Positions 43,445 to 56,662 of a DNA stretch of 64,000 nt are shown here, piece by piece. This DNA comes from a bacterium. Lineage in GTDB: Bacteria > Cyanobacteriota > Vampirovibrionia > Gastranaerophilales > Gastranaerophilaceae. The stretch's first letter is position 1, and each line of letters starts with the position of its first letter. The DNA is taken from assembly GCA_017559905.1 (NCBI GenBank), contig JAFYQF010000025.1, forward strand, positions 1 through 64,000, given 5' to 3'. The position numbers and the translations under genes are program-made. The notes under the pieces are model-generated. The model had not been told where the DNA came from. It searched no databases and saw only the letters and a program-made list of their open reading frames with translations.

Positions 43445-44503
43445 ATGAAGAAAATTATTGCAACATTAGGGGTATTAACACTATGCGCAACTTCAGCATT
43501 TGCTTTTTCAAAAAAAAGCTTAAACACTGAATTTGTTCTTGTTCCAACAATGAAATCTGAAACAACTCAACAAAACAGAGCTTGGGTTGGCACATTTCAA
43601 CTAGCTTGGAATGATTTCCAAAATTACATAATCAAAAAACCTGTCAAATTTGTTGGCGACGAAAGAAACAATACAGTTAAAGATTTGAACAAACAATCTT
43701 TCAACGAAAAAATGTTAAGTGCTAACTCTTATTACAAAACTTTTGGCGCAATATCTCCAAAACTTAAACTAGATATTGAAACAGGTATTAAAAAGAAATT
43801 CAACGAAACTAGCGACATTCTTGATATGCTTGATTGGACACCTGACTACAACAAGTACCTTGTTTACACAATGTTGAAAAAAGATTTTCAATTCGAAAAT
43901 CCATTCGACAAACTTGACGAAGGAAGATTCGGAAAATTCCAACCTAGAGTTCAATATTTTGGTATCAATGGAGAATCTGACCCAGTTCTTCGTAACAACG
44001 TGAAAGTTCTTTTCTATTATGACGAAAACGATTACGCAGTTGAGTTAAAAACAAAAGGAAAAGATGTTGTTTATTTATACAAAACATCTAAAGACAAAAA
44101 CTTCGAAAAGCTATACCGTGAAATGCAACTTAAAACAAAAGCTTACGTAGACACTAAAGAATTTGGCAAAAAAGATGAACTTAAAGTTCCTGACATCAAT
44201 TTGTACAAATTACAAGATTATCCTGAATTAACAAACAAACAAATCAAAGGTAAAAGCATGTACATTTCAAATGCAATGCAAACCATTGATTTTAAAATGA
44301 ACAATGAAGGCGTTAAACTAAAAAGTGAAGCAATTATTGCCACAATGAGATGTTCACTTGAACCTGAAGACACTACAAAACCTCGTTATTTCTACTTCGA
44401 TGATACATTCGTTTTATTCCTACAAGAAACAGGTAAAAAACAACCTTACATGGCATTAAGAGTGTACGATTTAGATTTAATCAACAAAACTGCTAAAAAA
44501 TAA
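43445..44503 (+). CDS. 352-aa exported hypothetical protein
   Basis: Signal peptide MKKIIATLGVLTLCATSAFA, then a mature domain. Its recognisable phrases are FVLVPTMKSETTQQNRAWVG, AWNDFQNYIIKKPVKFVG and a C-terminal YFYFDDTFVLFLQETGKKQP segment. The N-terminal part (LVPTMKS...WNDF...) and the last strand (F-x-DTFV-F) recall serpin-like patterns, but I cannot confirm that. aaggag precedes ATG, 10 nt after the previous stop, so it is in the repressor operon. Ends at a strong terminator. Confidence 0.75.
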   Translation: MKKIIATLGVLTLCATSAFAFSKKSLNTEFVLVPTMKSETTQQNRAWVGTFQLAWNDFQNYIIKKPVKFVGDERNNTVKDLNKQSFNEKMLSANSYYKTFGAISPKLKLDIETGIKKKFNETSDILDMLDWTPDYNKYLVYTMLKKDFQFENPFDKLDEGRFGKFQPRVQYFGINGESDPVLRNNVKVLFYYDENDYAVELKTKGKDVVYLYKTSKDKNFEKLYREMQLKTKAYVDTKEFGKKDELKVPDINLYKLQDYPELTNKQIKGKSMYISNAMQTIDFKMNNEGVKLKSEAIIATMRCSLEPEDTTKPRYFYFDDTFVLFLQETGKKQPYMALRVYDLDLINKTAKK

Positions 44504-52492: not shown

Positions 52493-53806
52493 TTACACTG
52501 TTTTGCTTTCATTATCAACTATACCAGGTTCTAATTTTGAACCAGTATACCACTCACGAAAGGCATATTGTGCTTTCGGCAGACAATATGCAAGCAAGAA
52601 GCTACTCAACCCAACATTTGCCAAGATATTCAAAGATTTGACGGTTTTAGCTTTTTTTGCAAATCGCTGAACTTCTTCTAAAACATTTTTATCACCAGCA
52701 ACAGAAATAGCCTTTGATGAAAATTCTTCTATAGAACGTTTAAACTTAACAAGCTCATCCAAATCTACATACGCTCTAGGATCTCTAACTCCTGATTTCA
52801 ACATTTTTACTTTTTCAAACTCTGTTGCATATTTTGTAAATATTGAATTAGGATTTTCATCAATAAATTTCAATAAAGAAACTCCATCATTCCCTTTTGG
52901 TAATTGAATATTTTTTGTAGCAACATCTTTTATAAAATTTTTATCAGCCAACATAATTGGGTCTAATTTTACGTTCAAATTTAAAACTTTGCTTGTTGCA
53001 TTATCCAAAAACTTTTCAATGTATTTTGGAGCAACAAAATTTAAAAACATCATACCAGCCATCTTGAAAGCAATATCAACAGCTTCATTCTTTTTCCTAG
53101 CAGTTACAACCCTGCCTACAGCATACCCACCATCAATTGTTGCCATTTTTTGATAAGTAGAAAACCCCGCAACAGTAGAAGAAAAACTACCCGTAAATGT
53201 CGGTGCTTTTGAATTTTTAATCATATTATTATCTGTATTTACATTTTTTTGAGTTTCTTTAGCTTTTTTCATAGCTTTAGTTTTTGCCGTTAAGCCAAAC
53301 ACTAGCTTTGGAATTACAAAGCCCATCAAAGCAATAGGAATTGTAGTGGCTGAAATAAATTTAGCTGAAAGTAATTTTTCATACTTCCCTTTATTTAATT
53401 TAACCTTTTTGATATCTTCTAAAGCAGATTTAACTTCTTTCGCCTGTTTTTCATTAAAAATATTTTTGGCAAGTTTTTCTTCATAAGCCTTGATATTAAA
53501 ATCAATTCCCTGACAATTTGATTCCTTAAACAATTTCAAATTCACATCTGGAGAAAGTCCATTTTTCTTTATAAATTTATTGGCAACCCATTCTACAAAA
53601 GGTATTCCACCTAACCAAACCGCTGATGTAGCATATTCATCAATGACACGTTCTCTAGTTGCAAGAAACGCAACATCCTTGTCATCTTTATTTTCTTTAT
53701 ACGTCAAATAAACCTTTGACGGTATTTCAACTCCGCAATCACGGAGTATCAAAGGGTAAACACTACTATTATTACCTATCGCTGATATTATTCTTGTTAA
53801 TGTCAT
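52493..53806 (-). CDS. Histidine-free lineage-specific membrane protein behind a His attenuator
   Basis: About 437 aa, starting at the ATG at 53806 or the one at 53812; GGAG lies 9 or 3 nt upstream. No known family. The N terminus (MTLTRIISAIGNNSSVYPLI) is followed by a soluble domain with VAFLATRERVIDEYATSAVW. Several hydrophobic segments are visible (about 75-90; 185-205 ISATTIPIALMGFVIPKLVF; 275-290; 405-425). A TFTGSFSS motif lies near 225. I find no histidine in the whole reading frame, although about 7 would be expected. It follows an attenuator whose leader peptide has four His codons (53862..54005). Control by charged tRNA-His is inferred. Confidence 0.8.
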   Translation of the reverse strand: MTLTRIISAIGNNSSVYPLILRDCGVEIPSKVYLTYKENKDDKDVAFLATRERVIDEYATSAVWLGGIPFVEWVANKFIKKNGLSPDVNLKLFKESNCQGIDFNIKAYEEKLAKNIFNEKQAKEVKSALEDIKKVKLNKGKYEKLLSAKFISATTIPIALMGFVIPKLVFGLTAKTKAMKKAKETQKNVNTDNNMIKNSKAPTFTGSFSSTVAGFSTYQKMATIDGGYAVGRVVTARKKNEAVDIAFKMAGMMFLNFVAPKYIEKFLDNATSKVLNLNVKLDPIMLADKNFIKDVATKNIQLPKGNDGVSLLKFIDENPNSIFTKYATEFEKVKMLKSGVRDPRAYVDLDELVKFKRSIEEFSSKAISVAGDKNVLEEVQRFAKKAKTVKSLNILANVGLSSFLLAYCLPKAQYAFREWYTGSKLEPGIVDNESKTV

Positions 53807-53861
53807 AATCATTTTCTCCAATTCTAACTTTTTCACTATTCTGGGGTGCGAAATAGGCACT

Positions 53862-53892
53862 AAAAAAGCCTTTCATCTTCCTGATAAAGGCT
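53862..53892 (-). terminator. Attenuator terminator (region 3:4)
   Basis: On the minus strand AGCCTTTATC pairs with GAT(G)AAAGGCT around an AGGAA loop, followed by six T. The 5' half (53883-53894, GTAGCCTTTATC) can pair instead with region 2 (53944-53955). Confidence 0.9.
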
Positions 53893-53948
53893 ACTTTCTT
53901 AATTAGAATTGAACTGATTTAAAACTTCGCACAACATCAATCCATAGC

Positions 53949-54005
53949 CTATATCAGGTCGCTATGATGATGACGATGGAATTTTAAATCAAATAATTTC
54001 TTCAT
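53949..54005 (-). CDS. Histidine-rich leader peptide of the attenuator
   Basis: Reads MKKLFDLKFHRHHHSDLI and stop: 18 codons with four His codons in a span of five (H-R-H-H-H). AAAGGA lies 9 nt before ATG. It is comparable in size and layout to hisL of enteric bacteria (a run of His near the end, then a stop). The stop lies within the region-2 sequence. The product itself need not have a function; the position of a stalled ribosome does. Too short for standard gene finders. Confidence 0.85.
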   Translation of the reverse strand: MKKLFDLKFHRHHHSDLI

Positions 54006-54024
54006 ATAATTTTCCTTTGTCTAG

Positions 54025-54053
54025 AAATTAACACAGGGTAAAACTTTTTTCAA
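54025..54053 (-). promoter_or_regulatory. Promoter of the histidine attenuator transcript
   Basis: TTGAAA (54048-54053) and a TG-extended TAATTT (54025-54030) are 17 bp apart on the minus strand. Transcription should start about 10-15 nt before the leader peptide ATG. Confidence 0.6.
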
Positions 54054-54063
54054 GCCCAGATAA

Positions 54064-54448: not shown

Positions 54449-56662
54449 ATGACTGAAAAATCACTATTCGAGGATATAAAACAATCACTTCAAGCCCAAA
54501 ACTGGGAAGATGAAGACATAAAACAAGTTGAAAAAGCGTTTCTTTTTGCAGAAAAGCTTCACGAGGGACAATATAGGATTTCAGAAGAACCCTATATAAT
54601 TCACCCTGTCGAAGTTGCAAAAATTCTTGTAAACCTTAAAGTTGACAGTCATACGCTTATTGCCGCATTTTTGCACGATATATTAGAAGATACAGACACC
54701 AAGCCAGAAGAAATAAAAGAGCTTTTTGGTGATGATGTTTTGAACTTGGTGCAAGGAGTGACTAAACTTGGCAAACTTCAATTCAAATCTAACGAAGAAC
54801 GTCAAGCAGAAAACTTCCGACGTCTGTTTATTGCAATGGCAAACGACATCAGAGTTATCTTCCTAAAACTTGCAGACAGATTGCATAATATGCGAACCCT
54901 GAACTTTATGGCTGCAAACAAGCAACAAAAAATTGCACGTGAAACTTTAGATATTTTTGCACCACTAGCAAACCGTTTAGGTATCGGTAAAGTCAAGGCA
55001 GAGCTTGAAGATTTATCATTAAGATACCTTGAACCTGACAAATATTTTGAAATTGCACAACTTGTTTCTCAAACAAAAGCAGAACGTGAAATGACCGTAA
55101 ACTTGCTAATCGAAAAAATTTCTCAAGATGTGCAAAAGAACGGCATAAACGCTCAAATCACAGGACGTGCAAAACATTATTACAGCATTTACAGCAAAAT
55201 GAAACGTCTGAACATCGCATTCCACGATTTATACGATATTACGGCAGTACGTGTAATTGTAGATAGTGAAAAAGAATGCTATGAAGTTTTAGGACTAATT
55301 CACTCACAATTCAAACCAATCCCAGGTAGATTTAAAGATTATATTGCTATGCCAAAAGGCAACATGTACCAATCTTTACACACCTCAGTAATTGGTCCAC
55401 GTTCAAAACCTTTGGAAGTCCAAATCAGAACTTGGGAAATGCACGAAATCGCTGAATATGGGGTTGCTGCACACTGGAGATATAAAGAAAAAGGTTCTCA
55501 AAAAGCTAACAACCCTGCAGATGTTCAATTTAGCTGGATGAGAAAAATGGTTGAATATGAGCAAGACATTACAAATGCAGAAGATTACGTCAATTCTGTT
55601 AAGCTAGACCTTTTCTCTGACCAAGTATTTGCATTCACTCCAAATGGTGACGTACTAGATTTGCCAATAAACGCCACTCCTGTAGACTTTGCATACAGAA
55701 TTCACTCTGATGTAGGACACAGAACAGTCGGTGCACTTGTTAACGGACGTATTGCACAACTTTATACAAAGTTGAATAACGGCGATATTGTAGAAATTTT
55801 AACTTCAAAAACCCAAGCACCTCGCCTTGATTGGCTTAACTTTGTTGTAACAAAACAGGCTTCTTCAAAAATCAAACAATGGTTTAAAAAGAACAACCGC
55901 GAAGATCACATCGAAGTTGGAAAAGCTAACCTTGAGCACGAATTAACTAAAGCAGTTTTTGATGAGTATTTAAAAAGCGGTGAATTTGACAAAATTGCTA
56001 AAGTTATGAACTACCAAACCGCTGAAGACCTTTTTGCAGCGTTAGGATATGGTGAAACAACTTTAAACAAAATCGTTAACAAACTCAAAAAGCCTGAAAA
56101 GAAACCTCTCGAACAAAATTTCCACGTTCATTCCAGAAAGAAATCAGAAAAGGATATTATTGGCTTAGAAGGACTTTTGTACTCATTTGCTCGTTGTTGC
56201 TCTCCAATTCCTGGAGAACCCATTGTAGGCGTTGTAACTCGTTCAAAAGGGGTTTCCGTTCACAGAATTGACTGCAAAACTTTAGAAAACGTTCCCCCTG
56301 AAAGACTTATGGATATCAGTTGGGCAGGTGGAACAACATCCAAAACTTACAGCACCACTATTCGTGTTGAAACTGCTGAAAAAATGGGACTACTCAAAGA
56401 CATTATCGCTGCTGTTTCTGATAACAATACAAATATCAATTATGCAAATGTTAAATCTAAAAACAACAAGATTGGTATCATTGAACTTGGTATTGAGTTG
56501 AATAATATTGAGACTTTGAAAAAAGTTATAACAAGTATTCAATCTATACCTGATGTTTATAGCGTAAAACGTATCCAAACTTCAGCTTCGCACTCAAGCC
56601 AACCTAGAAAGCCACAACAACAAAAAGGAAGATACCCTAAATCAAAACCAAGAAAAAATTAA
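54449..56662 (+). CDS. Bifunctional (p)ppGpp synthetase/hydrolase (RelA/SpoT)
   Basis: 737 aa, the full-length Rel architecture of the stringent response. The HD hydrolase domain is intact (IIHPVEVAKIL; AAFLHDILEDTD; LADRLHNMRT). The synthetase domain has RFKDYIAMPKGNMYQSLHT and EVQIRTWEMHEIAEYGVAAHW. TGS (VFAFTPNGDVLDLP), a zinc-finger-like stretch (FARCCSPIPGEPIVG) and ACT domains (TTIRVETAEKMGLLKDI) follow; a basic tail ends the protein. Both activities should be present. The mRNA is predicted leaderless. A terminator shared with the next, convergent gene follows. Confidence 0.97.
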   Translation: MTEKSLFEDIKQSLQAQNWEDEDIKQVEKAFLFAEKLHEGQYRISEEPYIIHPVEVAKILVNLKVDSHTLIAAFLHDILEDTDTKPEEIKELFGDDVLNLVQGVTKLGKLQFKSNEERQAENFRRLFIAMANDIRVIFLKLADRLHNMRTLNFMAANKQQKIARETLDIFAPLANRLGIGKVKAELEDLSLRYLEPDKYFEIAQLVSQTKAEREMTVNLLIEKISQDVQKNGINAQITGRAKHYYSIYSKMKRLNIAFHDLYDITAVRVIVDSEKECYEVLGLIHSQFKPIPGRFKDYIAMPKGNMYQSLHTSVIGPRSKPLEVQIRTWEMHEIAEYGVAAHWRYKEKGSQKANNPADVQFSWMRKMVEYEQDITNAEDYVNSVKLDLFSDQVFAFTPNGDVLDLPINATPVDFAYRIHSDVGHRTVGALVNGRIAQLYTKLNNGDIVEILTSKTQAPRLDWLNFVVTKQASSKIKQWFKKNNREDHIEVGKANLEHELTKAVFDEYLKSGEFDKIAKVMNYQTAEDLFAALGYGETTLNKIVNKLKKPEKKPLEQNFHVHSRKKSEKDIIGLEGLLYSFARCCSPIPGEPIVGVVTRSKGVSVHRIDCKTLENVPPERLMDISWAGGTTSKTYSTTIRVETAEKMGLLKDIIAAVSDNNTNINYANVKSKNNKIGIIELGIELNNIETLKKVITSIQSIPDVYSVKRIQTSASHSSQPRKPQQQKGRYPKSKPRKN

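Follow-up and report, generated by a model that had tools for sequence, protein, structure and literature searches.

The protein encoded on the minus strand at positions 52,493 to 53,806 of the window, the 64,000-nucleotide stretch of a Gastranaerophilaceae genome analysed here, contains no histidine, and its gene is preceded by a short leader rich in histidine codons. We infer that this leader acts as a switch responding to histidine starvation in a histidine auxotroph and that the switch is the cause of the histidine depletion, a joint reading of regulation and cause to which we assign a probability of roughly 0.78. The conserved leader, the conserved RNA helices, the depletion at the codon level and the co-occurrence with the loss of his genes are all read from sequence comparisons. 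The gene and its upstream elements are listed below.

52493..53806 (-): histidine-free protein of 437 amino acids, all-helical, probably membrane-bound and without known family
53949..54005 (-): leader open reading frame MKKLFDLKFHRHHHSDLI, ending in a stop codon, with 4 histidine codons and preceded by the ribosome-binding site AAAGGA; called from the sequence and from the histidine-rich frame of the orthologues
53961..53978 (-): region 1, the stretch of histidine codons CATCGTCATCATCATAGC, whose complement lies around region 2
53946..53958 (-): region 2, 5′ arm of the antiterminator CCTGATATAGGCT, overlapping the leader stop codon and pairing with region 3
53880..53892 (-): region 3 AGCCTTTATCAGG, 3′ arm of the antiterminator and 5′ arm of the terminator, called from pairing and the consensus fold
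53862..53892 (-): intrinsic terminator formed by regions 3 and 4, AGCCTTTATCAGGAAGATGAAAGGCTTTTTT, a hairpin followed by a U-tract
53901..53913 (-): 5′ arm TTCAATTCTAATT of the Shine-Dalgarno-covering helix, which has 13 bp in the window genome
53817..53829 (-): 3′ arm AGTTAGAATTGGA of the same helix, reaching into GGAG, called from per-sequence analysis

A count over the 437-residue frame (MTLTRIISAIGNNSS...) gave 0 histidines, as had been reported in the preliminary description of this DNA. At the genome mean of 1.515% histidine, 6.6 residues would be expected and the Poisson probability of finding none is 0.0013, close to the earlier estimate of the order of one in a thousand. When open reading frames were counted on 1.83 of the 1.84 Mb of the genome, this protein was the sole frame without histidine among the 446 of at least 400 amino acids, and 6 of the 735 frames of at least 300 amino acids, this one included, had none. 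Because five other proteins of at least 300 amino acids are also free of histidine, the statistic for the single protein is only moderate, and the strength of the observation comes from the family-level statistic. A secreted-looking protein of 352 amino acids at 43445-44503 likewise contains 0 histidines; its orthologues average 0.42% histidine.

The named relatives place the organism in the Gastranaerophilales (Melainabacteria). The orthologues gathered from contigs of named genomes and from further relatives (n = 130) extend down to about 41% identity, and every one of them has a histidine-rich leader frame upstream (at least 3 histidines), often of the form LHHxHHHS. The proteins themselves contain no histidine in 107 cases, one in 16 and two in 7, and none contains more than two. 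The total of 30 histidines in 55,519 residues corresponds to 0.05%, compared to a background of 1.5-1.7%, which places the protein among those with low cognate bias, where the cognate amino acid lies below the proteome average. Within the first 53 orthologues, histidine made up 0.02% of residues compared to 1.73% in neighbouring proteins, and the depletion of any other amino acid was at most about twofold. Distant relatives that lack the leader contain 1-10 histidines; these include members of sister families with RelA/SpoT nearby, and a few of the hits are fragments. Two paralogues in genome G000 (L002, G000:C13:48442-49752, and L003, G000:C6:97020-97862) have 6 and 10 histidines, respectively, and no histidine leader. 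The comparison of histidine counts with and without the leader, which the preliminary description had proposed as a check, therefore shows that the depletion tracks the attenuator: leaderless homologues were not equally free of histidine, and leader-bearing homologues with a normal histidine content were not found among the 130. The locus L053 (FR900486.1), titled Fusobacterium sp. CAG:439, is a typical Gastranaerophilales locus, and its label looks wrong.

The depletion was also analyzed at the level of codons and along the phylogenetic tree. Across the genes of 53 orthologues, CAC or CAT was counted 5 times in frame, compared to 421 and 239 times in the two alternative frames; positional base composition predicts about 500 in-frame occurrences of CAY. 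Because CAY is abundant out of frame, the avoidance acts on the histidine codon and not on the DNA word. Parsimony on a tree of 128 orthologues placed 8,081 replacements, of which only 11 were to histidine; this is 0.08 of the background share, and gains of histidine are thus 12-fold too rare. On the same tree, gains of cysteine were at 0.89 of background and those of glutamine at 1.42, with glutamine and asparagine, which are chemically close to histidine, both at about 1.4. A single branch (support 97/98) separates the leader-bearing proteins from the others, so the correlation between leader and depletion reflects one origin followed by long maintenance rather than many independent gains.

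The leaders have the layout of a ribosome-mediated attenuator, as judged from the short frame with several candidate regulatory codons found in 130 of 130. The histidine codons of region 1 can base-pair with region 2 and the bases that follow it, with a predicted duplex energy of -14.9 kcal/mol in the window genome. Region 3 can pair either with region 2 or with region 4, so that an antiterminator and a terminator that exclude each other share one arm; in the terminator, region 3 pairs with AAAGGCT, which is followed by T residues. A consensus fold of 121 leaders, for which no structure was supplied, recovered the 2:3 antiterminator helix. This helix contains compensatory changes, with one pair found as TA in 42 leaders and CG in 41, and another as GC in 61, TA in 29, CG in 6 and AT in 6, and the antiterminator duplex has a mean energy of -26.8 kcal/mol compared to -15.0 in shuffled sequences. 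A terminator with a U-tract was detected by scanning in 71 of the 130 orthologue leaders, including that of the window. Plain transcription attenuation is not valid throughout the family, because the other 59 leaders show no such U-tract terminator.

Another helix, formed by TTCAATTCTAA with TTAGAATTGGA, extends into the Shine-Dalgarno GGAG. Across the 130 leaders the longest Shine-Dalgarno helix averages 10.2 bp compared to 8.0 bp in shuffles, and lineage versions were found in which the sequence is swapped and the pairing is kept (TTCAATTTCACATT/AATGTGAGATTGGA and CTTTTTTCGTT/AGCGAAAAGAG), while in some lineages the helix is weak or unclear. This helix rests on per-sequence analysis, because the consensus fold of the whole leader gave only the antiterminator helix. 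Its 5′ arm lies inside the 2:3 loop, and the antiterminator should therefore keep the Shine-Dalgarno sequence open. By these comparisons of predicted structures the attenuator is real, and it comprises an antiterminator helix, a terminator in about half of the species and a Shine-Dalgarno helix. It is also the only clear amino-acid leader detected in the one scan of the genome, which gave no convincing case for other amino-acid leaders and whose weaker hits look like chance. The window has no match to Rfam at gathering scores, and positions 53800-54060 gave no leader family up to an E value of 10.

Both hisD and hisB are absent from the window genome, which is 99.96% complete, and they are also missing in nearly all relatives that carry the histidine-free gene; auxotrophy is read here from the absence of these two genes in draft genomes. 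Among 288 genomes of the family, the orthologue was found in 5 of the 81 with hisD and in 153 of the 207 without it, a difference with a nominal Fisher p of 1e-27 that ignores kinship. The two genes occur together in 5 genomes, and 54 genomes have neither. The same pattern is seen inside single genera: genus g6 has 10 genomes with the gene only, 7 with hisD only and 3 with both, genus g21 has 8, 10 and 0, and genus g57 has 1, 16 and 0. Because the gene and hisD alternate in this way, the histidine-free gene can be regarded as mostly a feature of histidine auxotrophs; that it appears to occur almost only in such genomes is a new observation. In genome G197, which also carries the histidine-free gene, the hisD on contig C10 (29542-30756) scores E 5e-181 compared to about 1e-150 for the others of the family, and this hisD would be a late acquisition or contamination.

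In the proposed mechanism, when charged tRNA-His is plentiful the ribosome that translates the leader would reach the stop codon and cover region 2, region 3 would then form the terminator, the downstream helix would hide the Shine-Dalgarno sequence, and the gene would be off. With tRNA-His in short supply, the ribosome would stall on the histidine codons and region 2 would pair with region 3, making both the terminator and the Shine-Dalgarno helix hard to form, and the gene would be on. In species without a U-tract, control would probably act on translation only. The protein would have lost its histidines because its synthesis takes place when histidine is lacking. Since the organism lacks histidine biosynthesis, the switch would be the response of an auxotroph and not the control of a biosynthetic operon.

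The AlphaFold model of the 437-aa protein is composed entirely of helices, with a mean pLDDT of 82. Hydrophobic stretches at about residues 60-80, 155-173, 242-265 and 388-410, the last three of which correspond to segments near 156-174, 242-260 and 388-406, suggest a membrane protein, and from these predictions the protein is probably membrane-bound. No match was found in Pfam, NCBIfam, PHROG or PDB, including none to a transporter family, and the gene matches neither a his gene nor any curated family. Fold searches of PDB with Foldseek and VIA-align gave no convincing match; the best Z of 7.2 over 86 residues has little meaning for a helical model. An internal duplication, considered in view of repeated hydrophobic-P-K motifs, was rejected, with only 4.7% probability in a comparison of the profiles of the two halves.

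The genes flanking the histidine-free gene differ from genome to genome, and the following gene often lies on the opposite strand, so the histidine-free gene is probably transcribed alone. A divergent RelA/SpoT gene (54449-56662), with a YggU gene between, adjoins the histidine-switched gene in many relatives, though not in all, and neither lies within 5 kb in several lineages that retain the leader and the histidine-free protein. The M16 peptidase, which the preliminary description had set against the histidine-free protein as a downstream protein in need of histidines for zinc, lies downstream only by the gene order of the window genome and stands outside the system. It was rejected as a part of that system, as the linkage is not conserved (among the fetched loci, an M16 relative lies beside the gene only in the window genome) and the M16 protein is not free of histidine.

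One alternative is that this branch of the family lacks histidine for structural or chemical reasons, such as the avoidance of metal binding, that have nothing to do with the leader. Two other histidine-free proteins of this genome were checked in the same way, the one of 352 amino acids described above and DnaN, the sliding clamp (L160, 2796-3917, contig C3). The 29 DnaN orthologues hold only 10 histidines in a total of 10,802 residues, 23 of the 29 have none, and the leader scan found no leader for DnaN. Nearly histidine-free families therefore arise for other reasons too, and the family described here is unusual but not unique. The single common origin of leader and depletion and the low cysteine content of the first orthologue set (0.53 of background) point in the same direction. 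However, the leaderless relatives of the same protein family do contain histidine, and on the tree gains of cysteine are near background while those of histidine are not. A structural trait would also require two coincidences, that the missing amino acid is the one coded in the leader and that this leader is the only clear one scanned in the genome. The base rate is set by about 1-6 of the 735 proteins of at least 300 amino acids, and the chance that the sole gene with a histidine leader also belongs to a histidine-free family is, on a rough estimate, somewhere around 1 in 100 to 1 in 700. We consider a structural trait unlikely. Far less probable still is simple chance, in which a histidine-free protein of a low-histidine proteome happens to follow an unrelated leader: such proteins do exist in this genome (the 6 of 735 noted above), but 130 orthologues as divergent as these all staying at 0-2 histidines refute it for the family as a whole. 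The reading of histidine starvation given in the preliminary description is thus supported, with qualifications that concern the single origin, DnaN and the remark on the M16 peptidase.

Two further alternatives bear on parts of the starvation-switch reading. The switch may be mainly translational, acting by hiding the Shine-Dalgarno sequence, with the terminator secondary and often lost; this would be a variant of our reading rather than exclusive of it. The leaders without a U-tract keep the antiterminator and, mostly, the helix into the Shine-Dalgarno sequence, but the hairpin and U-tract are present in the 71 others, the window's among them, and the Shine-Dalgarno helix is not clear in every lineage. 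A mainly translational switch is possible but rather doubtful. As for function, retention of the gene almost exclusively in auxotrophs suggests as the best guess, and a tentative one, that the product helps to obtain or spare histidine. The main alternative is a role in general survival, in which the product would be a dormancy or stress factor for which histidine serves only as the signal of starvation; this proposal competes on function only. The adjoining RelA/SpoT gene in many genomes, the lack of a match to a transporter family and the apparently solitary transcription among varying neighbours would fit such a factor. The strong confinement of the gene to genomes without hisD is not predicted by a general stress role, however, and other lineages keep the gene and its leader away from RelA/SpoT; we regard the stress factor as somewhat improbable.

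The leader of the window is similar to the his and trp leaders of enterobacteria in having a short frame rich in one amino acid, a mutually exclusive antiterminator and terminator, and a leader stop codon inside region 2. In contrast to those attenuators, it controls a single gene rather than a biosynthetic operon, in a host without histidine biosynthesis, it adds a Shine-Dalgarno helix, and about half of the species lack the U-tract terminator. Unlike the enterobacterial his leaders, it matches none of the histidine leader models in Rfam. Judged by its layout, the element resembles a his-type attenuator and probably acts as one, but it is not biosynthetic. In erm-type translational attenuators, stalling of the ribosome on the leader exposes a Shine-Dalgarno sequence that is otherwise hidden. 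The window leader would resemble these in the release of the Shine-Dalgarno sequence by a stalled ribosome, but its signal would be uncharged tRNA and not a drug, and half of the species appear to add a transcription terminator.

Low cognate bias is the tendency of proteins required during starvation for a given amino acid to be poor in that amino acid (Alves and Savageau 2005, via PMC4209129). The known cases, as far as they are described in PMC4209129, are statistical shifts in biosynthetic enzymes. In contrast, the protein described here lies outside known pathways, has near-zero histidine in over a hundred species, and has its cognate amino acid named by the leader of its own gene. Compared to the cases described in that source, the histidine depletion is low cognate bias in an extreme form that is linked to a leader. 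On balance we lean towards the view that auxotrophs keep a leader-peptide switch, acting through termination and the ribosome-binding site, for a membrane effector purged of the missing amino acid. No paper on such a gene was found in the literature collection searched, and it is somewhat probable that a switch of this kind with its purged effector represents a previously undescribed class of starvation genes, made when the amino acid is exhausted.

As a natural example of selection against one amino acid the gene is unusually clean, with the selecting signal in its own leader, and the idea of cognate bias becomes directly testable on one protein by adding histidines back. It also hints at how uncultured histidine-auxotrophic gut bacteria may cope when histidine runs out.
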